Source: Pleomorphomonas sp.
GTDB lineage: Bacteria > Pseudomonadota > Alphaproteobacteria > Rhizobiales > Pleomorphomonadaceae
Direction of reading: 5' to 3'
Assembly: GCA_029976075.1 (NCBI GenBank)
Contig: JARKNW010000071.1
Location: 1-64,000, forward strand
DNA: 64,000 nt
A model generated the notes under the pieces. That model was given only the letters and a program-made list of their open reading frames with translations, searched no databases and had not been told where the DNA came from. Shown here piece by piece: positions 2,448 to 41,465 of the stretch. The stretch's first letter is position 1. Each line of letters starts with the position of its first letter. Position numbers and translations under genes: made by a program.

Positions 2448-3500
2448 ATGCGCCTTATCATAGTCGGCACCGGCAGCATGGCCCATCACCATGCCCAGCA
2501 TTTCGCCCAGATCCGCGGCGTCAAGATCGTCGGCTGCGTTGATGTTTTCCCCGAACGGGCCACCGCCTTCGCCAAGGAATTCAACATTCCCAGAACGTTC
2601 GCGACGGTCGAGGACGCCATCGTCTGGGGCACGTTCGACTCGGCGGCCAATGTGACCACCGATCTGGCCCACTATCCCACGACCATGGCGCTGATTACCG
2701 CCGGCAAGCATGTACTCTGCGAAAAGCCGCTGGCGACCAACTATGCTCATGCTCTCGAGATGACCGAGACCGCCGAGAAGGAAGGCGTCGTGGGCATGGT
2801 GAACCTCAGCTATCGGAATGTTCCCGAGATTCACAAGATGCACCAGATGGTCACTTCGGGTGTCATCGGTGACGTCAAGCATGTGGAAGCGAGCTATCTG
2901 CAGAGCTGGCTCACCGGCACGCACTGGGGCGACTGGCGTACCGAGAGCCGATGGCTATGGCGCCTGTCGGAAAACCATGGCTCCAAGGGTGTCATCGGGG
3001 ACGTCGGGATTCATATCCTCGATTTCGCCTCCTTCGGTGCCGGCACCGACGTGACCCGGCTGTTTGGACGCCTCAAGACGTTCCACAAGGCGCCCGACGA
3101 CAAGATCGGCGAGTACACGCTCGACGCCAATGACAGCTTCGCCGGCACTCTGGAGTTCGAGAACGGTGCCATCGGTGTCATCCACGCTTCGCGTTTTGCC
3201 ACCGGCTATGCCAATACGCTGCGCGTCCGCGTTTTCGGTGACAAGGGTGCGCTGGAAATCCAGAACGGCTCCGACGGGACCTGGCTGCGCGTCTGCAAAA
3301 GCGCAAAGGACATCAACAGCCAGACTTGGCGCCCGGTCACAGCCAAGCCAGTGCCGATGAACTACAAGCGTTTCTTCGACGCCGTAAAGGCCGGAAAGAC
3401 GTCGGAACCAAGCTTCCGTCGGGCCGCCGAGTTGCAGCGTATTCTCGACGCGTCATTCGAGACGGAAAGACTGAGAACCGAACTGACTGTTGCTGGCTGA
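2448..3500 (+). CDS. Gfo/Idh/MocA family oxidoreductase
   Basis: 350 aa; N-terminal Rossmann IIVGTGSMAHHHAQHFAQ; HVLCEKPLATN motif diagnostic of the family. Confidence 0.9.
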   Translation: MRLIIVGTGSMAHHHAQHFAQIRGVKIVGCVDVFPERATAFAKEFNIPRTFATVEDAIVWGTFDSAANVTTDLAHYPTTMALITAGKHVLCEKPLATNYAHALEMTETAEKEGVVGMVNLSYRNVPEIHKMHQMVTSGVIGDVKHVEASYLQSWLTGTHWGDWRTESRWLWRLSENHGSKGVIGDVGIHILDFASFGAGTDVTRLFGRLKTFHKAPDDKIGEYTLDANDSFAGTLEFENGAIGVIHASRFATGYANTLRVRVFGDKGALEIQNGSDGTWLRVCKSAKDINSQTWRPVTAKPVPMNYKRFFDAVKAGKTSEPSFRRAAELQRILDASFETERLRTELTVAG

Positions 3501-3662
3501 ATAGCCCCGACGAGCATTTTCTGAAATGCCGCGGGATGCAAAATCCGGTGGCCTTTCATTTTGGTTGCTCCGTCGGAACATCGCACCACTACGATATTTA
3601 TCCGGCTTATTAATGTTCTCATGCGCCGTCATAATTGACAGGTGCAGCCGCGCAAAAGCAAA

Positions 3663-3692
3663 AAAGCCGGCGACCTCACGATCGCCGGCTTT
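3663..3692 (-). terminator. Intrinsic terminator downstream of pta
   Basis: Perfect stem AAAGCCGGCGA/TCGCCGGCTTT; on the minus strand followed by a T-rich run (complement of GCAAAAAA). Confidence 0.8.
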
Positions 3693-3717
3693 CGTCATAG
3701 AGTTCTTTGCCGCAGCC

Positions 3718-5835
3718 TCACTCGGCCGCAGCCGCCTGAGCTGGGCGCTCGCTCTGCCCCACCTGAATGGCGGTCAACGCGATGGTGTAGACGATGTCGT
3801 CGACGAGTGCGCCGCGCGACAGATCGTTCACCGGCTTGCGGAGCCCCTGCAGCATCGGACCGACCGACACGACGTTGGCCGAGCGCTGCACGGCCTTGTA
3901 GGTCGTGTTGCCTGTGTTGAGGTCCGGGAAGACGAAGACGTTGGCATGACCTGCCACCGGCGAGCCGGGCGCCTTCTGCTTGCCAACGCTCTCGACCGAG
4001 GCGGCGTCATACTGGATCGGACCGTCGACGAGGAGATCGGGACGAAGCTCCATCACCTTCAGCGTGGCGGCACGCACCTTGTCGACATCGCTACCCGTGC
4101 CGGAAGTGCCGGTCGAATAGGAGATCATGGCAACGCGCGGGTCGATGCCGAAGGAGCGGGCGCTGTCGGCCGACTGGCAGGCGATCTCGGCGAGTTCGTC
4201 GGCCGACGGATCGGGGTTGATGGCGCAGTCGCCATAGACCAGCACCTGGTCGGGCATCAGCATGAAGAACACGCTGGAGACGATCGAGTTGCCCGGAGCA
4301 GTCTTGATGAGCTGCAGTGCCGGACGCACCGTCGAAGCGGTGGTGTGGACGGCACCAGAGACCAGACCGTCCACATGCCCCATGGCCAGCATCATGGTGG
4401 CGAGCACCACGTTGTCCTCGAGCTGAGCCTCGGCCTGCGGCGGGGTCAGACCCTTCGACTTGCGCAGTTCGACCATAGGGGCGACGTAGTTGGCGCGCAC
4501 CTTGGCCGGATCGAGGATTTCCAGCTCCGGCGGCAGCTCGACGCCGTGCATGGTCGCAACATCCTTGATCGCCTTGGGATCGCCGACCAGCACGCAACGA
4601 GCGATGCGCTTCTGCGTGCAGATGACCGCTGCCTTGATCGTGCGCGGCTCGTCGCCCTCCGGAAGCACGATGCGGCGATTGGCGGCACGCGCTTCCTGGA
4701 TCATGCGGTGGCGGAACATCGGCGGCGTCATCAGACCGCCGTTGGAACGCGCCGTCGCCGGGGCGAGCGGAGAAAGGTCGATGTGATCGGCCACGTGCTC
4801 GAGCAGCTTCTCCATGCGCTCGGCGTCCTCGTGACGAACGCGACGGTCCATCGAATTGAGGCGGACAGCCACGTCATAGGTCTGCAGCTCGGTGGTGAGC
4901 ACCGGCAGGTCGCCGAAGCGAGGCGACAGGAACTCGGAGATCGACGGCGCCATCGGCTCGTCGCAGGTGAGCAGAAGGCCGGCGATCGGCATGCCAGAGG
5001 ACCGGGCCAAGGTCGTGGTGATGATGATGTCGGACCGATCGCCAGGAGTGACAACCAGCGTGCCGGGCTTCAGCGCCTTCACCACCTTGTCGGGGCTGCG
5101 GGCGCCGATGACGATTTCGCCGACACGCGCCTTCTTGATATCGCCGGGCCGCAGGATGCCGAACCCCAGATCAGAGGCAACGTCCACGAGGCGCGGAGCA
5201 TTGAGGGCGGGCTCGTCGGAAGTGACGGCGAGAACGGGGACGCCGATGTTCGCCGCCGCCAGTGCCTTGGCGAACTCGTCCGCCTTGACGTCACCGCCGC
5301 GAGCACGACCGACGATCAGGCCGGCAAAGGGCCGCCCTTCGGCAAGGAAGCGGTGCTGGGCGTCGGCCAGATCGCCGACGATGGACTTCACCGTGGCATC
5401 GAGGCCAGGAACCACCGGGATGATCTCGGCGGACAGCGACCGCCCCATGGCGATATCGAGGTCGATGGTCAGCGGATGGGTGGTCGAGGGCAGGAGCCCC
5501 TCGACGATGACGATGGAGCGGCTGCCGCGCGCTTCCTCGACCAGTTCGACGATCTCTTCGAGCAGGGTGAAGAGATTGCCCGTCCGGATCATCTCCTCGG
5601 CCCGCTCGGCGGGGATCGGGTCGGGAGTGTTGAGGCCGAGCAGCGTGCGGGCGAAATGCACCGAACGGTCGAGCCCATCGGGATAAGCCTCGGGATCAGC
5701 CACTGGCTTGGCGAAGCCGACGTCGTAGCCTTCACGCTGGAAGGCGCGGACGAGGCCAAGCGCCACCGAGGAAATGCCTTGCTGGCTCGAAGTCGGAGCC
5801 AGGAAGAACGTACGGTAAGAGGGTTTCGGGGTCAT
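3718..5835 (-). CDS. pta: Phosphate acetyltransferase (long form with DRTGG/BioD-like N-terminus)
   Basis: MTPKPSYRTFFLAPTSSQQGISSVALGLVRAFQREG... plus C-terminal PTA domain (RIVLPEGDEPRTIKAAVIC..., GLVSGAVHTTASTVRPALQLIKTAPG). Confidence 0.93.
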   Translation of the reverse strand: MTPKPSYRTFFLAPTSSQQGISSVALGLVRAFQREGYDVGFAKPVADPEAYPDGLDRSVHFARTLLGLNTPDPIPAERAEEMIRTGNLFTLLEEIVELVEEARGSRSIVIVEGLLPSTTHPLTIDLDIAMGRSLSAEIIPVVPGLDATVKSIVGDLADAQHRFLAEGRPFAGLIVGRARGGDVKADEFAKALAAANIGVPVLAVTSDEPALNAPRLVDVASDLGFGILRPGDIKKARVGEIVIGARSPDKVVKALKPGTLVVTPGDRSDIIITTTLARSSGMPIAGLLLTCDEPMAPSISEFLSPRFGDLPVLTTELQTYDVAVRLNSMDRRVRHEDAERMEKLLEHVADHIDLSPLAPATARSNGGLMTPPMFRHRMIQEARAANRRIVLPEGDEPRTIKAAVICTQKRIARCVLVGDPKAIKDVATMHGVELPPELEILDPAKVRANYVAPMVELRKSKGLTPPQAEAQLEDNVVLATMMLAMGHVDGLVSGAVHTTASTVRPALQLIKTAPGNSIVSSVFFMLMPDQVLVYGDCAINPDPSADELAEIACQSADSARSFGIDPRVAMISYSTGTSGTGSDVDKVRAATLKVMELRPDLLVDGPIQYDAASVESVGKQKAPGSPVAGHANVFVFPDLNTGNTTYKAVQRSANVVSVGPMLQGLRKPVNDLSRGALVDDIVYTIALTAIQVGQSERPAQAAAAE

Positions 5836-5854: not shown

Positions 5855-7066
5855 TCAGGCTTGGGCAGGCAGGAGACCGGCGAGGCGAGCCGTATCTTCG
5901 GCAATCACACGTTCTTCGTCGGTCGGAATGACGATGGCCACCGGCTTCTTCGACCGCGACACGATGCCGCTCTTGCCGCCGAAGATGGTGGCATTGGCTT
6001 CCTCATCGAGATCGAGGCCGAGAGCCGACAGGCGCTTCAGCGTCTTGGCCCGGATATAGGCGGAGTTCTCGCCGATGCCGCCGGTGAAGGCCACGGCATC
6101 GAGGCGCGGCAGAGCAGCCGTCAGTGCGCCGATATAGCGGCAAAGACGGAAGACGAACACGTCGAGCGTTTCTTCGGCCTGATGGTTGCCGGCCTGGGCC
6201 GCTTCGGTGAGCGTGCGGCAGTCGTTGGAGAGCTCCGACAAACCGAGGAGACCGCTCTCGCGGTTGACCATCTTTTCGAGTCCGTCGACGTCAAGGCCGG
6301 TCTTCTTGGCGATGTAGGCGAGAGCGCCGTAGTCGACGTCACCGGTACGTGTTCCCATGACGAGACCTTCGAGCGGGGTCAGGCCCATCGAGGTGTCGAC
6401 GCACTTGCCGTTGAGGACGGCGGTCGCGGACGAACCATTGCCGAGATGGCAGACGACGACGCCGCTGTCGTTCGGATCGAGACCGAGCATACGGATGGCT
6501 TCGCCGGAAACGTAGCGGTGCGACGTGCCGTGGGCACCGTAACGGCGGACGCCAAGGTCACGGTAATACTTGCGCGGCAGGGCGTAGAGGAAAGCCTCCG
6601 GCTTCATGGTCTGGTGGAAGGCGGTATCAAACACGGCCACCTGCTTCAGCGCCGGGAAGGCGTGCACGGCAGCGCGCATGCCGATCGCATGAGCCGGGTT
6701 GTGCAGCGGCGCGAAAGGACAGGTTCCGATTTCCTCGATCATGGCATCGCCGGTGAGGATGCGGCTCTCGGTGAACTGCTCGCCACCGTTGACCACGCGG
6801 TGACCGACGGCGGCCACGCGCTCGAACCAGCCATGCGCCTTCAGGAAGCCCATCAGCGCATCGACGGCGCCCTGGTGGTTGGTCGGCGTCAAGGCGGCCT
6901 TGTTCTTGGTGCCGTCGACGTCAAAACGGATCGAGGCGTCGCTCTGGCCAAGGCGCTCGGCCAGGCCGGAAGCCAGCGGCTTGCGTTCGCCGACCGGGTA
7001 AATGGCGAACTTCAGCGACGAAGAGCCGCTGTTGATGACCAGGATCAGGGGGGAGGATGTCGACAT
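5855..7066 (-). CDS. ackA: Acetate kinase
   Basis: ILVINSGSSSLKFAIY, VAVFDTAFHQTMKPEAFLYALP, RRYGAHGTSHRYVS, GNGSSATAVLNGKCVDTSMGLTPLEGLVMGTRTGDVDYG. Start placed at MSTSSPLILVINSG. Confidence 0.95.
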   Translation of the reverse strand: MSTSSPLILVINSGSSSLKFAIYPVGERKPLASGLAERLGQSDASIRFDVDGTKNKAALTPTNHQGAVDALMGFLKAHGWFERVAAVGHRVVNGGEQFTESRILTGDAMIEEIGTCPFAPLHNPAHAIGMRAAVHAFPALKQVAVFDTAFHQTMKPEAFLYALPRKYYRDLGVRRYGAHGTSHRYVSGEAIRMLGLDPNDSGVVVCHLGNGSSATAVLNGKCVDTSMGLTPLEGLVMGTRTGDVDYGALAYIAKKTGLDVDGLEKMVNRESGLLGLSELSNDCRTLTEAAQAGNHQAEETLDVFVFRLCRYIGALTAALPRLDAVAFTGGIGENSAYIRAKTLKRLSALGLDLDEEANATIFGGKSGIVSRSKKPVAIVIPTDEERVIAEDTARLAGLLPAQA

Positions 7067-7414
7067 CAGCGATACTCTATCGATTCTCGTTGGATTGACC
7101 GAGGATACGGCGAGCGGCAGCGCCCCCGTCATACCTAATCTCGTGGATTTGCGGCGAATATCCGAGATCGGGTGGATTTGGTATGCGGCCCACCCCGTAC
7201 CGAACTCAGGGCCATGAACGCGAAGGAAACGCCGTCGACACTAGCGCAATCCGATTTATATTTTCTTTTCATGACTTTAACAAAAACTGTCGTCCGCGTT
7301 TCCGGAATAGCTCGAACAAGAGCAATGCGCATGACGCAGACGAGCCGCCCGGCAACGGCATAAGTGCGCGCCGCCGAACAGCTTTTTTCTCATCGCCTGT
7401 CTTCGGATCGCCGG

Positions 7415-8791
<1,377 letters not shown>

Positions 8792-11622: not shown

Positions 11623-12582
11623 TCAAGCGGTGGGGGCCGCGTCGGTATGGTCCTTCAGATAGGCCCATAACCGCTCGACGCGGGCGCGCACCTTGTCCAT
11701 GTTGCGATAGATTCGGATGCGCATGTCGATGACCGCCTCAGGGTCGACGACCACGAGTTTGCCGCTGTCGATCTCCGCGCGAATGGTATTGGCGGGAAGC
11801 CAGGCCACGCCGCGACCGGTGATCGCCATGGTCTTGATCGCTTCGGCCATCGGGTTCTCGTAGATCTTGGCAAGATTGAGCGCCTCTCCGCGCTCGGCAA
11901 GCAGCACGGAGACCAGCCGTCCGAGAAAGGTCTCCGGCGCATAGGCGAGATAGGGAACCGGCTTGTCCGAGCCGCCGGGCAGCGGGAACAGGGGGGCGCC
12001 GTTGGCGTCTGGCGCCGACACCGGCATCACCCTGTCGCCGCCGAGATCGAGGGACGGAAAGCGTTCCGGGTCCAGCAGCACCGGCACGCGCGGATGCTCG
12101 TAGGTAAGCAGAAAATCACAATCGCCTTCGGCGAACATCCGAATGCTGTCGTGGAAATTCTCGGTGATCAGACGGGCATGGATGGGGCCGAAGCCGGATT
12201 CGACGTCCTTCAGCCACCACGGAAAGAAGGAGATCGATAGTGAATGCAACGTCGAGAAGGTCAAGATACCCTGACCTTGCGCCCGACCGGAACGCAACTC
12301 CGCGCGCTCGAGCAAGATCAGGCGCAGGACCTCTTCGGCAGTCTCGCGAAAGCGACGACCTTCGGCCGTCAACGTGGTGGGATAGGTTGAGCGATCGACC
12401 AATGGCACGCCCAACCACTGCTCTAGCTGCTGGATCCGGCGGCTGAAGGCGGATTGCGTGACGCGGCGTTCCACGGCCGAACGCGAAAAGCTGCGCGTGT
12501 TGGCGAGGCTCACAAAATCCTCGAGCCACTTGATTTCCACAGATCGGCACTCCCGTTCGAGGCCCAAAAGCCTCTCGCGCAT
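11623..12582 (-). CDS. LysR-family transcriptional regulator (YjiE/HypT-like)
   Basis: EIKWLEDFVSLANTRSFSRSAVERRVTQSAFSRRIQQLEQWLGVPLVDRSTYPTTLTAEGRRF wHTH; LysR substrate-binding domain follows. Exact start uncertain. Confidence 0.88.
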   Translation of the reverse strand: MRERLLGLERECRSVEIKWLEDFVSLANTRSFSRSAVERRVTQSAFSRRIQQLEQWLGVPLVDRSTYPTTLTAEGRRFRETAEEVLRLILLERAELRSGRAQGQGILTFSTLHSLSISFFPWWLKDVESGFGPIHARLITENFHDSIRMFAEGDCDFLLTYEHPRVPVLLDPERFPSLDLGGDRVMPVSAPDANGAPLFPLPGGSDKPVPYLAYAPETFLGRLVSVLLAERGEALNLAKIYENPMAEAIKTMAITGRGVAWLPANTIRAEIDSGKLVVVDPEAVIDMRIRIYRNMDKVRARVERLWAYLKDHTDAAPTA

Positions 12583-31082: not shown

Positions 31083-32138
31083 TCACTGTCCTGGCTTGTA
31101 GATCTGATCGAACACGCCACCGTCGCCGAAGTGATAAGGCTGCGCCTTGGCCCAGCCGCCGAACAGCGGTTCATCGATACTGACCAGCTTCAGTTCGGGG
31201 ATCGATTTGAGAAGCGCAGGGTCAACCAGTTTGGGCTCTGCCGGACGATAGTGGAACTTCGCGGCGAGCGTCTGTCCCTCGGCCGAGTAAAGATACTCGA
31301 GATAGGCTCTGGCCTCCTTTTCGGTGCCGTTGGCCTTGGCGTTGGCCTCTACGACGGCAACCGGCGGTTCCGCCAGGATGGATTGCGGCGGCACCACGAT
31401 GTCGAACTTGTCGGCGCCAAACTCATCGAGCGCCAGGAAAGCCTCGTTCTCCCAGGCGAGCAGCACGTCGCCGAGCTCGCGCTGAGCGAAGGTGACTGTG
31501 GAGCCACGGGCACCGGTATCGAGCACCGGCACGTGCTTGTAGAGGGTGCCGACGTAATCGCGGATCTTCGCCTCATCGCCACCATACTGCCCCGCCGCCC
31601 AAGCCCAGGCGGCGAGGTAGTTCCAGCGAGCACCGCCCGAGGTCTTGGGATTGGGCGTGATCACCTCGATGCCATCCTTTATGAGGTCGCCCCAGTCGTG
31701 AATGCCCTTGGGGTTACCTTTGCGGACCAGAAAGACGATTGTCGACGTGTAAGGGGCGGAGTTGTGCGGCAACTTGCCGCGCCAGTCAGCCGGGATCTTG
31801 CCCGTTTTCTCGACGATGGCGTTGATATCGCTTTCAAGCGCCAGCGTCACCACGTCGGCCGGGAGGCCGTCGATGACGGCACGCGCCTGTTTGCCCGAGC
31901 CGCCATGGGAGGCACGAATGGAGACATCCTCTCCGGTCTCAGCCTTCCAGTGAGCCGTAAAGGCGGCATTATACGCCTCGTAAAACTCGCGTGTCGGATC
32001 GTAGGAAACGTTGGTCAGCGTCACCGCAGTGGCGGGAGCGACGAGGGCAAGTGGTGCCGCGACAATGGCGGCAAGCACCCCCAGAAGTTTCGAGCCTCTC
32101 ATGTTTCCAGCCCTCCAGCCTTGAGCGATGTCCTGCAT
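31083..32138 (-). CDS. Sulfate ABC transporter substrate-binding protein (Sbp/CysP family)
   Basis: [87 protein letters not shown]. Confidence 0.94.
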
Positions 32139-32351: not shown

Positions 32352-33797
32352 TCAAGAAGCGATCAAGTTGCGGACACGCTGGACCGCCTCTGGCAGCAAC
32401 GAAGCCAGCGCCCCGCCAGGTCGCTGCCGCAACAGCGAAAGGGATGGATAGATCGGGGTCTTTTCCCCTTCCAAGCGCCAATTCCAATCGGCCGCGGCAG
32501 CCAGGAGAGCAACACCGGAACGCTGAAGGGCGCCGGCAACACGGAGCGGCAGACCATCGACGGCGATGACGGCGTCGAGGCGACTGATAAGGGCCACGCA
32601 ATCGACACGGGCATCGACGCCAGCCTCGAAGTCGGGACCGGGATGCTCGACGCGAATCGGAGAGCTGGCAACCTCCCATCCTGACGATGCAGATGAACGA
32701 GCAAGCAAGGTCGAGGGCAGGCGTTCGAGCGCGACGAAACGAAGATCCCCCACGCCGGCGAGCGGAGCAAGATTCTCCAGCCTGAGATCGCCGCCCCAGA
32801 CGAGGCCAATGGCCCGCCGCCCCCTGCCGAGATCCAGACGTGCACTCCATCGGTCTGCAAGTGCCGGCTCGGCAGCGAGCAATGGACCGGTCGGCAAAAA
32901 ACTGCCGGCGGTAAGACCGAGCCGATGCGGCAAACCGGCAAGCGGCGCGGCAGCCGCACCAGCCCAGGCCCCGAGATCGTCACTCTCGGCAACGGCGTGG
33001 TCGGCACCGGCGAGCCCTGAAGCGAGACGCACAAAAGGCTTGGGCACCACCAGCACGAGCTCTGAGACCAGGGATCGAGCGAGCGGAAGAGCCGGTGCGA
33101 AGGTCAGGAGATCAAGGGGATCGGAACCAGTCCAGACAAGGAGCGACCTCTCCAGGGGAGAGCCATCCCACGGCAGCAGCCGACTTGCCCAGGTTGGACG
33201 GACAGCGATGGCGTCGAGATCGGCAAACCCGGCGGCCATGTCACCAAGCGACAGGAACGCCGCCGCCCGATCGGCGTGCGGACGAGAGTCATCATGGCGC
33301 CGAAAGGCTTCGACCGCTGCCAGCGGACGCCCTGCCGTCACAAGAGCCGAGCCGAGTTCTCTCAGCGCTTGCGGCTCGGAAGGATCGAGCCTTAGGGCCG
33401 CCTCGAACGCCGAAACGGCGCCGTCAGCGTCGCCAGCAGCAAGGCGTGCTGCGCCGAGGCGTGCGGCCAGTTCGGCATCGAGCGGTCTGGCCGCCCTCGC
33501 GCGTTCGAAAGCCGCCGCCGCTTCTTTCAGGCGCGATGTGGCGGTCAGCGCTTCGCCAAGCGCCATGGTGATATCCGCGCGGCCAAGTTCCGTCCGATCG
33601 GCGCGCGTCAGAAACACCACCGCCCGCGCATGATCTCCGTTGGCGCGGGCAGCGGCAGCGGCCCCCAGCATGGCTGGCACGTGATCAGGCGCCCGGACGA
33701 GCGCCACCTCGTAAAGGGCTATGGCCTCGATCCACTTGTGGGCCATCTCGGCGGCGTTGGCGCGAGCCAGCAATTGATCGACAACCGTTTCGGTCAT
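32352..33797 (-). CDS. TPR protein with degenerate C-terminal glycosyltransferase (GT-B)-like module
   Basis: 481 aa; N-terminal TPRs (KWIEAIALYEVALVRAPDHVPAMLGAAAAARANGDHARAVVFL); C-terminal module WDGSPLERSLLVWTGSD...IGLVWGGDLRLENLAPLAGVGDLRFVALERL...YPSLSLLRQ parallels the upstream protein. Confidence 0.75.
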   Translation of the reverse strand: MTETVVDQLLARANAAEMAHKWIEAIALYEVALVRAPDHVPAMLGAAAAARANGDHARAVVFLTRADRTELGRADITMALGEALTATSRLKEAAAAFERARAARPLDAELAARLGAARLAAGDADGAVSAFEAALRLDPSEPQALRELGSALVTAGRPLAAVEAFRRHDDSRPHADRAAAFLSLGDMAAGFADLDAIAVRPTWASRLLPWDGSPLERSLLVWTGSDPLDLLTFAPALPLARSLVSELVLVVPKPFVRLASGLAGADHAVAESDDLGAWAGAAAAPLAGLPHRLGLTAGSFLPTGPLLAAEPALADRWSARLDLGRGRRAIGLVWGGDLRLENLAPLAGVGDLRFVALERLPSTLLARSSASSGWEVASSPIRVEHPGPDFEAGVDARVDCVALISRLDAVIAVDGLPLRVAGALQRSGVALLAAAADWNWRLEGEKTPIYPSLSLLRQRPGGALASLLPEAVQRVRNLIAS

Positions 33798-36700
33798 GTG
33801 GCCGATCTTCCAGAAACGAAACTGCGCAAGACACCGACGAGATCGTCACTCTGGTGCCAGACGCGCACTTCGGGATACCAGGGCGTACCACCCTCCCCCG
33901 CCCAGAGCCAATCGCCGCCTGATGGATCGACAACTACAGTCGGTCGACCCAGCGTAGCGGCCAGGTGGGCGGTGGTCGAAACGGGCGCAACGATCAGATC
34001 GAACGCCATCATCGCCGCTGTCGTTTCCAGGAAGCCACCGAGCCTGTCACCAAGCGACTCGGCAGCCAGCCCCTTTGGAAGGGCCGCCAGCGAAGCGCGG
34101 CCAGCGCGCCGGTCGAGGGCAAAGAAGCGGATATCTTCGGCGCCGACCAGTGACGCGAAATGTGCGGCATCAGCGACGTTTCGCCAATAGAGACCGACAA
34201 CCGGCCGGCCGTCGCCGGCAACGAACCGCCGCCAAGCCTCGACCCTGAGAGGATCTGGCTGAAAATACGCTGGCGGCGGAAGGTTGGTTCGTTCGGTCCC
34301 GAACACATACGGCAGACTGCGAAGCGGCACTTCGAAATCATGGGGTGGCAGGCGGCGTCCCTGCTCGATGATCGTGACGTTGCTGCCGAGATCCAGCCGA
34401 CGAAACAGATCGGTCAGCGCGGGCCTGACCTCCAACAGGAGCTTTGGCCCACGTGACAGGAGCTGCGGAAGGAAGCGAGCGAAGGCTATGTCCAACCCAA
34501 GGTCGCGCTCGCCGTGGACCAGCAATGTCCTCCCGCGAAGATCCTCTCCCGTCCAACGCGGCGCCGAAAATCGCCGCGGCAACAGCTCAGGCGCCTTCCA
34601 ACGCACCTCCGCACGAGCAAAGCCGCGCCGATAGTCACCGGCAATCAGCAGCGCTTCCGCTTCGTCCATCAAGAGCTCTGGATCTGCCGGCGCCAGCACG
34701 ACGGCACGACCATAGGCAGCGAGGGCCTCCTTGGCACGACCGAGCGAGACCATGGCCTTGCCGACAGCGCGATGGGCGCGGGCAAGATCGGGCTTGAGTT
34801 CGGCAGCCCGCTCGGCATGGGCAAGCGCCTCTTCAAGGCGACCGATGAGCCTGTCGGCTCTCGAGAGCTCCACGAGCCTTTCGGCACTCGGAGCTTCGGC
34901 AACCAGCGCCGCCAAGAGGCTTCCGGCCCGGTCGATCTCGCCGATTCTCATGAGAGCCGCCGCGAGCTTCTCACGCAGCTCCGGCGTGCCGCCCCCGGTT
35001 TCCATAGCGTCGCCGAGCAGGAGAACGGCACGATGGTCGTCGCGACCAGCGAGTGCGGCAAGCCCGGCGCGGACAAGCGCGGCGCTCGTTCGATGGGCAA
35101 GATCATCGCCTGCCGCTGGATCATTTGGCATGGTGTCTGCGCGGAAGGGCACGGCGCGATCACCCGCCACGAAAGCGGCAAGCGCGGCAACAAGACGGGA
35201 AAGCCGTTGGGATTCGCTTTCCCCACTCCGTCGCCGGAAAAGGCGCGCCGTCGAAAACCATGGTGTGCGCCCGTCCCTTTCAAGCCACAGCCAGTCATCA
35301 CGATCCGGACCGATGACAAAGACAGCCCGTCCGGCGGCGGCAGCCAGCGCCGCGATCGGACTCCCCGCGGGAGCCACCACGGCATCAAGGTTTGGAAGAG
35401 CGGCGGCAACCACCTCGAGGCCAAGCTGCTCCGTGGCAAGCGGCCAAGCGTCAGGAAAACGCGCCGCCGCCGAGGAATCCAGAGCCACGAACGCCGCACC
35501 GACAATCGCAGCGAACTCCGGGACATCGGCCGACAAGTTCAAATCGCCGAGCGCTAGGCCGACGCGGAAGCCTTCGAGGTGAGCAAACGACCGCGCGGAG
35601 TTGGTTACGGCGATCGGGTTGACGGCAAGGTAGCGGCGCGGTGCCGGCAGGTCATCAGCAGTGAGACCAAGAAGCGCCGGCAGGCTCATCATCGGAATCA
35701 CAAACTCGCCATCCTCAGCCTCGCCCGTGCCGTCGAGCCCTTCAATACCTGCCAATAATGGCGCCAGCTCGTCTGCGCCGGCAACGCGAACGCCGGCAAC
35801 ACCAGCTGCCTTCAAGGCGGGAACGAACCGCAGGAGGCGGACCAGAACTCCTGCATCGCCCTCGGCAACGAGAACCACATGGCGGCCGGAGATGTCAGCA
35901 AGAGCCGGCAGGCTATGTTCAAGACCGCGCCGCCACTCGAACTCGGCAAGACCGGCGGCAAAATCGCCCGAGGCCAGCAACAGTTCTCCCAGAAAGGCGC
36001 GAGCAACGGCTGTTGGACGGCGAGCGATGAGGTCGCGGAGAACGCCAATAGCCTGATGGATCTGGCCATCCCCGCTGAGGGCTCGAGCAAACTCCATCGC
36101 CGCCTCGGTATGATCACCGTCACGCGCTACGGCTGAGCCAAGGAAATGCAAGGCCAGCACGGTGTCGCCAGCGGCCATCGACAAACGCCCGAGACCAAGA
36201 CGCGCATCGGCGCCATCGTCCGCGATGATGGCTCGCTCGAAGGCACGGGAGGCGCCACGCGTATCTCCTAGATTTCTTAGCGCCTCGCCCCAGGAGGCCA
36301 GGACATCGGCCCTGCCGGGAGCCCTTTGCGCCGCCTGTCGAAGCGCAAACTCCGCTCTCGACTGCTCGCCGAGCGACGCAAAAGCCGCGGCGCGCAGCAT
36401 CAGAGCCTCTATGGAAGCAGCATCGAGGCTAAGCACCTTTTCGGCATGATGGAGAGCCATGGCAGGTTGCCCCCGCTCAAGGTCACGGCGAGCGGCGAGC
36501 AACAGCACCCGGACATGGCGTGGCCCATTGGACAGCCCGGCATCAAGCGTCCGGCCAGCATCCGCTGTCTCACCAAGGCGGAACAACATTTCAGAAAGCC
36601 GCGCCCAGCCTTCGGGATCCGAAGGATCGAGCGCGACCAGACGAGCCGCAAACGGCAGGGCAGCGCGCGCTGCCGGCTCGCCCTCCACGCCTTCCGCAGC

Positions 36701-37735
36701 AGCGACAAGCCGATTGAGGGCGGTGACGTCTGAGAGCCCCGCCCCAGCGAGGGCCTTTGCCTCCAAAGAGAGCGCCCAGATGCTGCCCTGCCACCCCGAC
36801 TCATCAGCTCGAAACAGGCGCGCGCCAGGATACCAGCGGCTGAAGCGTCCTTCGCTCCCCCACATCCAGTGCGGCTCATGATCGAGCAGCAACCAGAGCG
36901 GCGCACCAGTTACGCCGGCGGCGTGCGCCACAGGGCCATCAGTCGTGACGACAAGATCAAGCCCGGCCAGCTTGTCGGGTTCGGGCTCGACGGCCGCACC
37001 TCCGAGCTTCTGGGCGGCAACGGCATCAAGCGCCACCAACCTGAAGCCAGGGAATGCGTGGCGAAGCACCGTTACGACGCCGTCAGGTGCCGGCCCGGCG
37101 CGACGGCTCCAGGGCGATGGGGCCAATGCAACGCCAATGGATGCCTCATTGCGCCGGGCCTGTGGCAGAAAGCGCGGCAACGGCACACTATCCGGCATAA
37201 GCCCGAGAGCGGCCGGCGCAGAGGCAAGTGGAAGGATAAGATCGTGGGGAGGTAAGGCCGCGACATCGACAAGCGGCACGGAGCCAAAGAGCGCACCGAA
37301 AGGCGCCAACCGCTCCAGTTGATCGGCAGGAACGGCGACCGTCAGCGATAATACACGAGCAGCAAGTTCCGGCAGGAAGCGGGCGAAGGCGAGCGTATCG
37401 CACTCGGCTTCCTCGCTGAGCACAACGACGCGAGCCGCCGGTAGACGCATTCCATTCCAGCGGGGGCGATCGGACAAAGACGAAAAGGCGCGACGCTCGA
37501 ACGCGCAGAAGCCTTGCGCCCAGTTCCCTCCGGCGAGCAAGAGACGCGCCTCTTCGAGGCGGGAGGACGCGCTGGCGTCCGACGCCTGGTAGCGGCCGTC
37601 TTCGTTGATCGTCAGGTCTTCGTCCAGTTTCAGCTCCAGCTGCCGCCGTTGGCCCAAGTGCCCTTTCAATGGAGGGAGCGGCCTGATTCGGGAATGATTA
37701 TATCCGCTCACACCCGCCCCAACGGGGCCGAACAC
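33794..37735 (-). CDS. Large TPR protein with three glycosyltransferase (GT-B)-like modules
   Basis: 1313 aa; modules at about aa 72-330, 590-855, 1033-1310, each preceded by TPR (LLLAGGNWAQGFCAFE, LLLASGDFAAGLAEFE, LLIAGDYRRGFARAE) and ending in a W[FY]xxARLFR-type motif; ATGA overlap with the downstream gene. N-terminal start uncertain. Confidence 0.78.
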   Translation of the reverse strand: MFGPVGAGVSGYNHSRIRPLPPLKGHLGQRRQLELKLDEDLTINEDGRYQASDASASSRLEEARLLLAGGNWAQGFCAFERRAFSSLSDRPRWNGMRLPAARVVVLSEEAECDTLAFARFLPELAARVLSLTVAVPADQLERLAPFGALFGSVPLVDVAALPPHDLILPLASAPAALGLMPDSVPLPRFLPQARRNEASIGVALAPSPWSRRAGPAPDGVVTVLRHAFPGFRLVALDAVAAQKLGGAAVEPEPDKLAGLDLVVTTDGPVAHAAGVTGAPLWLLLDHEPHWMWGSEGRFSRWYPGARLFRADESGWQGSIWALSLEAKALAGAGLSDVTALNRLVAAAEGVEGEPAARAALPFAARLVALDPSDPEGWARLSEMLFRLGETADAGRTLDAGLSNGPRHVRVLLLAARRDLERGQPAMALHHAEKVLSLDAASIEALMLRAAAFASLGEQSRAEFALRQAAQRAPGRADVLASWGEALRNLGDTRGASRAFERAIIADDGADARLGLGRLSMAAGDTVLALHFLGSAVARDGDHTEAAMEFARALSGDGQIHQAIGVLRDLIARRPTAVARAFLGELLLASGDFAAGLAEFEWRRGLEHSLPALADISGRHVVLVAEGDAGVLVRLLRFVPALKAAGVAGVRVAGADELAPLLAGIEGLDGTGEAEDGEFVIPMMSLPALLGLTADDLPAPRRYLAVNPIAVTNSARSFAHLEGFRVGLALGDLNLSADVPEFAAIVGAAFVALDSSAAARFPDAWPLATEQLGLEVVAAALPNLDAVVAPAGSPIAALAAAAGRAVFVIGPDRDDWLWLERDGRTPWFSTARLFRRRSGESESQRLSRLVAALAAFVAGDRAVPFRADTMPNDPAAGDDLAHRTSAALVRAGLAALAGRDDHRAVLLLGDAMETGGGTPELREKLAAALMRIGEIDRAGSLLAALVAEAPSAERLVELSRADRLIGRLEEALAHAERAAELKPDLARAHRAVGKAMVSLGRAKEALAAYGRAVVLAPADPELLMDEAEALLIAGDYRRGFARAEVRWKAPELLPRRFSAPRWTGEDLRGRTLLVHGERDLGLDIAFARFLPQLLSRGPKLLLEVRPALTDLFRRLDLGSNVTIIEQGRRLPPHDFEVPLRSLPYVFGTERTNLPPPAYFQPDPLRVEAWRRFVAGDGRPVVGLYWRNVADAAHFASLVGAEDIRFFALDRRAGRASLAALPKGLAAESLGDRLGGFLETTAAMMAFDLIVAPVSTTAHLAATLGRPTVVVDPSGGDWLWAGEGGTPWYPEVRVWHQSDDLVGVLRSFVSGRSAT

Positions 37736-37843: not shown

Positions 37844-38662
37844 ATGACCGATATCGTTGACAACACCGCCCAGAAGACCTCGAAGGCCTTCGTCCTACCC
37901 GCCGCCGACAATGATTTCCTGCTGTCGGACTCGATGCGCGGCGTTCGCTTCCTGCTCGAATACTCGAAGGCGGAGCAGACGCTGAAGGCCTGGGGCATCC
38001 GCTCGACACTGGTGGTGTTCGGCTCGGCCCGGGTTCATGAAAATGGCAACCCCCTGCATAATCGCTGGTATGGAACGGCGCGCGAGTTTGGCCGCATCGC
38101 CTCCGAGCGCGGCGGGGCCGTCAACAGAACCGATGGCTTCTTCGACAACGTCATCGCCACAGGCGGCGGTCCTGGCATCATGGAGGCGGCCAACCGTGGT
38201 GCCCGCGACGCAGGTGCCCCCACCATCGGCTTCAACATCACCTTGCCCCACGAGCAGGAGCCCAACGCCTATACGACGCCACAGCTCACCTTCCGGTTCC
38301 ACTACTTCGCCATGCGGAAGATGCATCTTGCCATGCGTGCCAATGCCCTAGTGGTGTTCCCCGGCGGCTTCGGCACTTTCGATGAGCTGTTCGAGCTCCT
38401 GACGCTGACCCAGACCCACAAGGGCACCCGCATACCGGTGGTGCTGGTCGACGGCGAATACTGGCACAAGGTCATCAACTTCGATGCTCTCGCCGACTAC
38501 GGCATGATCAATCGCGAGGACATCGGCCTCGTTCACTTTGCCGAAACGGCCGAAGAAATCTGGGGCTATCTCCAGTCCGAGAATCTCGGGTCGCACCGCA
38601 ATCGCGACAAGGCCCGTTATGGTGAAGGCGTGTTGACACGCCCCTCGCCGGTGCCGGAATGA
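37844..38662 (+). CDS. LOG family protein (TIGR00730-like)
   Basis: VVFGSARVHENGNP; ATGGGPGIMEAANRGARDAGAPTIGFNITLPHEQEPN; VVFPGGFGTFDELFELLTLTQT. Confidence 0.9.
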   Translation: MTDIVDNTAQKTSKAFVLPAADNDFLLSDSMRGVRFLLEYSKAEQTLKAWGIRSTLVVFGSARVHENGNPLHNRWYGTAREFGRIASERGGAVNRTDGFFDNVIATGGGPGIMEAANRGARDAGAPTIGFNITLPHEQEPNAYTTPQLTFRFHYFAMRKMHLAMRANALVVFPGGFGTFDELFELLTLTQTHKGTRIPVVLVDGEYWHKVINFDALADYGMINREDIGLVHFAETAEEIWGYLQSENLGSHRNRDKARYGEGVLTRPSPVPE

Positions 38663-38735
38663 CGGGCTGGATAAACGCGACGGAAGGACATTTGCCGCGT
38701 GAAAAGCGGCGCACGCTTTGTTAGCTTCCGCCCCC

Positions 38736-41465
38736 ATGACCGACGCGCAAGTTATCCCCGACGACCGGACCGCCGACGTGGCGACGCCCGCCATGGCGCA
38801 GTTCATCGAGATCAAGGCGGCCAATCCCGACTGTCTCCTGTTCTATCGGATGGGCGACTTCTACGAGATGTTCTTCGAGGACGCCGAGGTGGCCTCGAGG
38901 GCACTCGGCATCACGCTGACCAAGCGTGGCAAGTATCGCGGCGAGGACATCCCGCTTTGTGGCGTGCCGGTGCACGCGGCCGACGACTATCTCCAGCGCC
39001 TCATCGCCCTCGGCCATCGTGTCGCCGTCTGCGAGCAGATGGAAGACCCGGCAGAGGCCAAGAAACGAGGCTCGAAATCGGTTGTGCGACGCGATGTCGT
39101 GCGGCTCATCACGCCCGGCACCCTGACCGAAGACAACCTCCTCGACGCTCGTCGCTCCAACTATCTCGCTGCCGTCGCCCGACAGAAGGGAACGGAGAGC
39201 GCGGCGGACAGCTTCTCTGTGGCATGGGCGGACATGTCGACCGGTGCCTTCCGCCTCGTCGAAACCAGTTCCGCTGCCCTGCCGGCCCTGCTCGCCCGCA
39301 TCGAACCGCGCGAGTTGCTGGCCGCCGACGGCCTGTTCGAAGACGAGGAACTACGCCGGACCTTCAAGGCGGCAAGCCCGGCAGTCGTCCCGCTGCCGCG
39401 CGCCTTCTTCGACGCCGCCACGGCCGAACACAGGCTCGCCGACTTCTTCTCGGTCGCCTCGCTCGAAGCGTTCGGCAGCTTCAGCCGCCTGGAGCTGACT
39501 GCCGCAGCGGCCATCGTCGCCTATGTCGACAAGACGCAGATCAGCAACCGGCCCCTACTCGACCCACCGGCTCGGGAAAGTCTCGGTGGCGCACTCGCGA
39601 TCGACGCGGCCAGCCGGGCCAATCTTGAACTGTCCCGCACGCTCTCCGGAGAAAGGCGCGGCTCGCTGCTCCATGCCATCGATCGAACGGTGTCGGGCGC
39701 TGGAGCCCGCCTGCTTGCCGACCGGCTTGCCGCGCCGCTTGCCGATCCCGATGCCATACGCGACCGGCTCGACGCAGTGGACTTTTTCCTCGCCGAGACG
39801 ACGCTCAGAGCACGTCTGCGCCGCGATCTGGCCGGCGTGCCGGATATGGCCCGTTCCCTCACCCGGATCAGCCTGGATCGTGGTGGGCCGCGTGACCTCG
39901 CAGCCATAGCAGGCGGTCTCAACGCTGCCGCTCAACTGGCCACCGACCTCAGGGACGCTGGCGGCGCCGGCCCGGAAATCGACCGCATAGCTCAGGGGCT
40001 CGAAGCGGCTCCATCCGATCTCGCCGATCAGTTGATCGCCGCACTCGATGACGAGCTGCCCCTTCTGAAGCGCGATGGCGGCTTTGTCCGGCAGGGCTTC
40101 CGTTCCGACCTCGACGACGCGCGTGCCTTGCGCGATCAGAGCCGGCAGGTGATCGCCGCCCTGCAGCAGACCTATGCCGAAACGACCGGTATCAAGTCAC
40201 TGAAGGTGAAACATAACGGCGTACTCGGCTATTTCATCGAGGTAGCGCCGAACTACGCCCAGGCGATGACCAGCGAACCGCTCAACCGGCTGTTCATTCA
40301 CCGGCAGACTCTGGCCGGCGCCATGCGCTTCTCCACCACCGAGCTTTCGGAACTCGAGGGGCGTATCGCTTCGGCTGCCGAGCGAGCCCTTGCCGTCGAA
40401 CTCTCCGTCTTTGCCGATTTGGCGCGGGCAACGTTGGAAGCCGGCAGCGCCATCAAGCGAGCGGCCGACATGCTGGCCGCCCTTGACGTTGCCACCGCGC
40501 TCGCCGAGCTCGCAGCCGCCGAAGGCTACGTCCGGCCGCGAGTCGATAGCAGCCTGACCTTCCGCATCGAAGGAGGCCGTCATCCGGTGGTCGAGCAGAT
40601 GCTGCGCGAGGAAGGCGGATCTTTCGTCGCCAACGGCTGCGATGTGGGCGGCGAGACCGCAGGCAAGCTCTGGCTGGTCACAGGCCCCAACATGGCCGGC
40701 AAGTCGACCTTCTTGAGGCAGAACGCGCTGATTGCCGTGCTCGCCCAGATCGGTTGCTTCGTACCGGCCAAATCGGCCCATATCGGCGTGGTCGATCGGC
40801 TTTTCTCGCGCGTCGGCGCCGCCGACGATCTAGCCCGCGGCCGCTCCACCTTCATGGTGGAGATGATCGAGACGGCGGCCATCCTCAATCAGGCAGGGCC
40901 CCGCTCCTTCGTCATCCTCGACGAGATCGGCCGCGGCACCGCCACCTATGACGGGCTATCCATCGCCTGGGCCACAATAGAACACCTGCACGAAGCCAAC
41001 CGCTGCCGCACGTTGTTCGCCACGCATTACCATGAGCTGACCGCTCTCTCCGAACGCCTGCCGCGCGTTGTCAATGCGACCGTCAAGGTGAAGGAGTGGC
41101 GGGGTGATGTGGTTTTCCTTCATGAAATCATTCCGGGATCGGCCGACCGCTCGTACGGCATCCAGGTGGCCAAGCTCGCAGGTCTGCCAAGGCCAGTGAT
41201 CGAGCGGGCCAGATCAGTGCTCGCCGAGCTTGAAAAGTCGGGCGGCAACAACGCCGTCTCGATGCTGGATGACCTGCCGTTGTTCTCGCTTGCTCGGCAC
41301 CCGACCGCAGCGCCCCCCGCCGACATACCAGCCGATCCGGCGGAAGCGGAACTGATGGCGGCGCTCGATGCTCTGGCACCCGACGAACTCAGTCCACGCG
41401 AGGCCCTGGAAACGATCTACCGGCTGAAGGCACTCAGGGCCGGAATCGGTCGTGCGCATGGTTGA
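38736..41465 (+). CDS. mutS: DNA mismatch repair protein MutS
   Basis: [107 protein letters not shown]. Confidence 0.98.

Follow-up and report, generated by a model that had tools for sequence, protein, structure and literature searches.

What do two overlapping genes with four glycosyltransferase (GT)-like modules do in Pleomorphomonas, and why have they been kept? The genes lie in the window, by which we mean the whole 64,000-nucleotide stretch of Pleomorphomonas sp. contig JARKNW010000071.1 (assembly GCA_029976075.1) that was analyzed. The sequence-only reading had described them as four homologous GT-B-like modules, distributed 3+1 over two ATGA-coupled genes. This description held up: open reading frames were found at 33794–37735 and 32352–33797 with an overlap at 33797–33794, and the strings quoted in that reading fall at residues 65, 301, 585, 826, 1029, and 1286 of the larger protein, where it had placed them. 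The features of the locus, with tetratricopeptide repeats abbreviated as TPR, are the following.

37844–38662, plus strand: LOG-family gene (Lysine_decarbox, PF03641), a conserved flank that also adjoins the intact cassette in genome G006
38718–41465, plus strand: mutS, in the shared flank LOG-mutS-glnD
33794–37735, minus strand: GT123, three GT-B-like modules and two internal TPR arrays, 1313 amino acids from GTG
36779–37543, minus strand: module M1, GT-like, without the TPR array that once preceded it, 38 of 69 family-conserved columns kept
35996–36649, minus strand: TPR array a, before M2, Pfam TPR_14/TPR_19 matches
35195–35983, minus strand: module M2, GT-like, 36 of 69 columns kept, ExGxGD without its D, DTxxxH without its D/H
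34652–35083, minus strand: TPR array b, before M3, Pfam TPR_2/TPR_11/TPR_19 matches
33842–34651, minus strand: module M3, GT-like, 45 of 69 columns kept, deletion of the RS loop, DTxxxH without its D
33794–33797, minus strand: 4-base ATGA overlap of stop and start codons that couples GT123 to GT4
32352–33797, minus strand: GT4, a TPR array and one GT-like module, 481 amino acids
33258–33785, minus strand: the TPR array in GT4, under stronger constraint than any other part of the locus (dN/dS 0.08–0.12)
32388–33260, minus strand: module M4, GT-like, 31 of 69 columns kept, DTxxxH without its H, RS loop gone
31083–32138, minus strand: substrate-binding protein (SBP) of a CysTWA-type ABC transporter, the other flank of the pair

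Orthologs of GT123 begin near residues 23–31; in the window, the first part of the annotated frame (37604–37735) offers a TTG at residue 23 or 27, and one of these is probably the real start, with the annotated GTG lying too early. Only ∼60 residues precede M1, as compared to ∼270–370 in relatives, so no TPR array stands before this module. The earlier claim that a TPR array leads into every GT domain is thus correct for M2, M3, and M4 and fails for M1.

Are the modules truly related, and to which family do they belong? All-against-all alignment rose above background, as had been anticipated, with five of the six pairs at E ≤ 2e-4 (M2/M3, 2e-19; M1/M3, 6e-14; M3/M4, 5e-8; M1/M2, 1e-7; M2/M4, 2e-4) and M1/M4 the sole pair compared that lacked a significant alignment. 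A single four-module HMM, run on the orthologous pairs from 11 other species, gave one match per module, except in Pleomorphomonas koreensis DSM 23070 (G003), where M2 was covered by two separate matches. The AlphaFold check that had been proposed was carried out for the 481-residue GT4, and the AlphaFold2 model contains TPRs and a GT-B domain (pLDDT 94.6, pTM 0.89), a fold partly borrowed from intact homologs because the alignment behind the model included them; the GT-B fold of M1–M3 is assigned through their sequence homology to other modules. The best PDB matches of the GT4 model in Foldseek were SPINDLY and OGT (GT41), which share a TPR superhelix and a GT-B fold with it at low TM-scores (0.27–0.45 by query) and 10–24% identity, and neither the window nor the intact modules gave a GT41 Pfam match. 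On GT123, Pfam reported TPRs plus a trace of GT9 (E = 0.82), far below the cut-off at 9.4 bits as compared to 22, whereas intact family members match PF01075 in 28 of 28 cases (best E 1e-7). Searches against the PDB used a GT-only profile; full-length phmmer and a TPR-containing profile were swamped by TPRs. With the GT-only profile, DTAVAH aligned to residues 261–266 (DTGLSH) of the GT9 heptosyltransferase WaaC, a weak match (E = 0.27) to a group without TPRs. Taken together, these comparisons place the four modules in a TPR-containing, GT9-like glycosyltransferase family, in agreement with the earlier assignment to TPR-glycosyltransferases with diverged repeats in coupled genes. TPR glycosyltransferases are already known, and multi-module forms are widespread but little described, usually being annotated as "tetratricopeptide repeat protein". 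A Telmatospirillum MAG (L063, 4383–20366) carries ten TPR-GT modules in 5328 amino acids, in a frame cut by the end of the locus, and giant multi-module proteins (L059, L061, L102) also occur in filamentous cyanobacteria, with five modules, and in relatives of Geobacter, with six matches.

The age of the layout was addressed with a module tree, in which each window module grouped with its positional counterpart from Agrobacterium vitis, an alphaproteobacterial MAG, other Pleomorphomonadaceae, and the basal Pleomorphomonas species G006. Support was 98% for M3 and 99–100% for M4, with a weaker backbone for M1 and M2. The tree indicates that the 3+1 layout is ancient, with four modules already distinct in an ancestor shared with A. 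vitis. It rules out a recent date for the intragenic duplication that had been proposed as the origin of the repeats, and up to ten modules are found elsewhere. When the distribution of the 3+1 layout was traced, as had been suggested, it was found in 12 "core" Pleomorphomonas species, including that of the window, and in G006, G014, G018, G019, and A. vitis. A species tree from MutS and LOG places G006 as basal, followed by G007, both outside the core. In the module tree, long stems of 0.70–1.60 substitutions per site lead to the core clade, whose own branches are short; the corresponding core stem in the MutS and LOG tree is only 0.15.

The relatives outside the core suggest what the pair once did. 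In G006, the glnD-mutS-LOG flank is followed by a giant RTX protein (an open frame of 3805 amino acids), GT123, GT4, an antisense GT-group-1 gene, a type I secretion system (T1SS) ABC gene, and HlyD. The same cassette, in the order Thr-rich RTX/β-roll secreted protein, three-module TPR-GT, one-module TPR-GT, type I exporter ABC, and HlyD, is present in G014, G018, and G019, which belong to the same family, and in two A. vitis genomes (L055, L056); the Pleomorphomonadaceae cassettes are loci L036–L039. It is also seen in the alphaproteobacterial MAG up to the contig end, which falls before the exporter. The antisense GT-group-1 gene was looked for in G006, G014, and A. vitis, and was found in each. 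The 3+1 proteins of G006, G014, G018, and G019 are larger than those of the window, and in A. vitis L055 the two GT genes overlap by 4 bases as well (12305–12308). The RTX proteins contain 14–19% Thr, are almost free of Cys, and have β-roll/RTX repeats, with serralysin-type C-termini (PF08548) where tested, a composition that makes them good candidates for O-glycosylation before export. From gene neighborhood, composition, and analogy with FlmG, a flagellin O-glycosyltransferase of Caulobacter, the ancestral TPR-GTs probably glycosylated the RTX protein. The pair would then descend from a cassette making a glycosylated, type I-secreted surface protein, in which the three- and one-module enzymes probably used their TPR arrays to bind the nascent RTX protein, which they would have glycosylated in the cytoplasm prior to export. 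In L199–L202 (order family f27), genes closely homologous to the T1SS ABC and HlyD of the cassette have no TPR-GT modules nearby, so finding the exporter by itself is no sign that the GTs are present. A possibly related cassette is found in Bradyrhizobium macuxiense (L080, 1–2752 and 7122–14120), where a three-module TPR-GT has a T1SS ABC and a HlyD-like gene upstream.

In the core species, the partner genes of the pair have gone. The window locus shares with the A. vitis and Pleomorphomonadaceae cassettes orthologous three- and one-module genes in the same order, but has none of the catalytic motifs, RTX substrate candidate, T1SS ABC, or HlyD that those cassettes keep. The core order is glnD-mutS-LOG followed by GT123-GT4-SBP-cysTWA, as compared to RTX-GT123-GT4-T1SS-HlyD after the same flank in G006, and the pair is always flanked by glnD-mutS-LOG and, where the contig extends far enough, by SBP-cysTWA. 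Genome searches of the core species and G007 turned up no homolog of the cassette RTX protein; for the exporter, distant T1SS ABC matches (35–36%) in two core genomes were all that was found. The window genome has no RTX or cassette-type T1SS homolog, and none adjoins the pair. The gaps beside GT123 and GT4 (∼110 and ∼210 bases) are so short that they leave no space for remnants of lost genes. The 12 core species have thus lost the RTX protein and exporter and kept both GT genes. Transfer of the genes to a new locus was ruled out on the LOG side by the synteny with G006; the SBP side differs, as the SBP gene is the flank in core Pleomorphomonas and G007 and lies elsewhere in the G006 genome. 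Ten sampled proteins of the region comprise hrpB, LOG, mutS, the ABC transporter set, a small unassigned protein, and the pair, with no flagellar match among them that would point to a flagellin/pseudaminic acid context. Module loss is ongoing: in P. koreensis (L041/L058), GT123 has an internal deletion in M2, and G007 (L040) has the pair at the same place in a 2+1 form without M1.

Do the remaining modules still act as enzymes? Conservation was scored over 69 family columns, defined as those conserved at ≥85% in 64 intact modules. Modules of intact cassettes and single modules keep 52–66 of these, those of G007 keep 44, 60, and 46, and M1–M4 of the window keep 38, 36, 45, and 31. The three signatures, ExGxGD (the Asp of "GD" presumably being the catalytic base in GT9 enzymes), the WxGNPxxxxDxxRS loop, and DTxxxH, are broken differently in each module. 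In every one of the four, the loop is either truncated or absent, and across the 12 core species no module keeps the full set. Of 213 family modules (78 records, several phyla), 205 carry D241, R356, and H440 together. This sample leans toward intact members because the patterns used to select it coincide in part with the motifs; the two lowest scores among the 213 both belong to this locus in P. koreensis. These losses suggest that catalytic activity has gone from the core modules, and an active protein-glycosylating complex is not favored, the motifs being lost in all modules. Alternatively, the modules could still be active GTs whose sites have been remodeled for another donor or acceptor, and catalysis might fall to a single module, M1 or M4, with the rest playing an accessory part. 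In 10 of 12 species M1 has the Asp of ECDT, and in most species it also has TDGxxAH; it retains one Asp of each motif and, in most species, the His. M4 keeps PLDL and VDG in most species, and its GT-B fold is predicted to be intact. The conserved aromatic C-terminal motifs DWLW/WYP..RLFR also persist. Against this stand the broken signature set, the near-universality of the three residues across the family, and the finding described below that GT modules are no longer conserved better than TPRs, and we consider continued activity, the chief rival to our favored reading, unlikely.

If the catalytic sites have decayed, is the pair decaying as a whole? NG86 pairwise dN/dS across the core was 0.08–0.27 overall, with 0.13–0.27 for GT modules and 0.08–0.22 for TPR arrays, while the neighboring LOG, MutS, SBP, and CysA gave 0.02–0.07. 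The pair is still under purifying selection with open frames in the core species, and with such values a simple pseudogene is not favored. A functionless relic whose frameshift is yet to come would fit the loss of partner genes and motifs, an evolution faster than that of the neighbors (dN/dS of ∼0.1–0.27 as compared to 0.02–0.07), and the dropping of M1 in G007 and the deletion within M2 in P. koreensis. Such a relic would not be expected to keep its frames open and its ATG overlap in place in 12 species, to show dN/dS still at 0.11–0.27 in the closest pair (G005/G008, dS ∼0.2–0.3), or to have short core branches after the long stem. We regard this explanation as improbable, and less likely than that of remodeled active enzymes.

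Selection appears to have changed its target, releasing catalysis and retaining the TPR, or binding, part. In intact cassettes, GT domains are better conserved than TPRs, and in the core the reverse is true: the GT/TPR distance ratio is 0.58–0.76 in 15 intact-cassette pairs and 1.02–1.54 in 66 core pairs. The pairs are non-independent and at different divergence, and the shift of constraint from GT domains to TPRs counts as supporting evidence, not as proof. In control intact multi-module proteins, 16 of 19 pairs had ratios of 0.53–0.91, and three pairs of one Geomonas protein had ratios of 1.00–1.31. These controls came from other taxa because an intact, low-divergence TPR-GT suitable as a control within the genus had no ortholog in the other core species. 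One single-module TPR-GT, intact with 60 of 69 conserved columns, was observed in the window genome on another contig (L035, G000:C130, 8409–9740), adjoining a TPR-sulfotransferase and an autotransporter (6436–8577, 3114–5525); it has no ortholog in other core species. As the assembly is estimated to be 7.9% contaminated, this contig may be foreign.

The reading that we favor, by a modest degree of belief, is a catalytically decayed orphan glycosyltransferase pair kept as a putative non-enzymatic TPR binding protein. On the line to the 12 core species, the RTX gene and exporter would have been lost from locus and genomes, a burst of change would have erased the catalytic and donor-site signatures of all four GT modules, and the proteins would then have been kept by purifying selection that is now strongest on the TPR arrays. 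Their present role would most likely be cytoplasmic binding by the TPR/GT-fold, as an adaptor, chaperone, or scaffold for a client. The earlier guess of a protein-glycosylating or scaffold system can thus be divided: glycosylation is the likely ancestral role and is not favored for the present proteins, which have lost the catalytic signature, and scaffold is the better half because every module's signature and the substrate and exporter genes are lost. FlmG, likened to the pair by description, offers a precedent for such binding, as it has the same cytoplasmic architecture of N-terminal TPRs and a C-terminal GT-B domain, and its TPR domain is sufficient to bind flagellin (PMC7591256); unlike the window pair, it is a single, active module with flagellin as its substrate. 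One form of the binding role, overlapping with our favored reading, is that of non-catalytic subunits presenting a client to another cellular GT. The concentration of constraint on the TPRs and the substrate binding by FlmG TPR domains (PMC7591256) would suit it, but no GT gene adjoins the core locus and the cassette's antisense GT-group-1 gene is absent there, and we hold this form to be somewhat unlikely.

As had been said from the window alone, no described function is known for this architecture. The open-access literature searched yielded no paper linking multi-module TPR-GTs with RTX proteins and no account of the RTX/TPR-GT/T1SS cassette or its decay to an orphan pair; FlmG and SPINDLY were the only relevant subjects to emerge on TPR glycosyltransferases or glycosylated RTX adhesins. 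The cassettes link multi-module TPR-GTs to a concrete probable substrate, the Thr-rich RTX β-roll proteins exported by type I secretion. The core pair provides a multi-species case in which active-site loss in four linked domains followed substrate loss while selection continued on the binding domains, making the question of when a dead enzyme stays useful testable in a culturable genus. More tentatively, loss of substrate and exporter may have turned a four-module GT machine into a conserved non-catalytic scaffold, with four sites decaying in parallel and the TPR surfaces as the selected function. If this is true, Pleomorphomonas would hold a genus-level record of the birth of a pseudoenzyme, intact in G006, intermediate in G007, and completed in 12 species.
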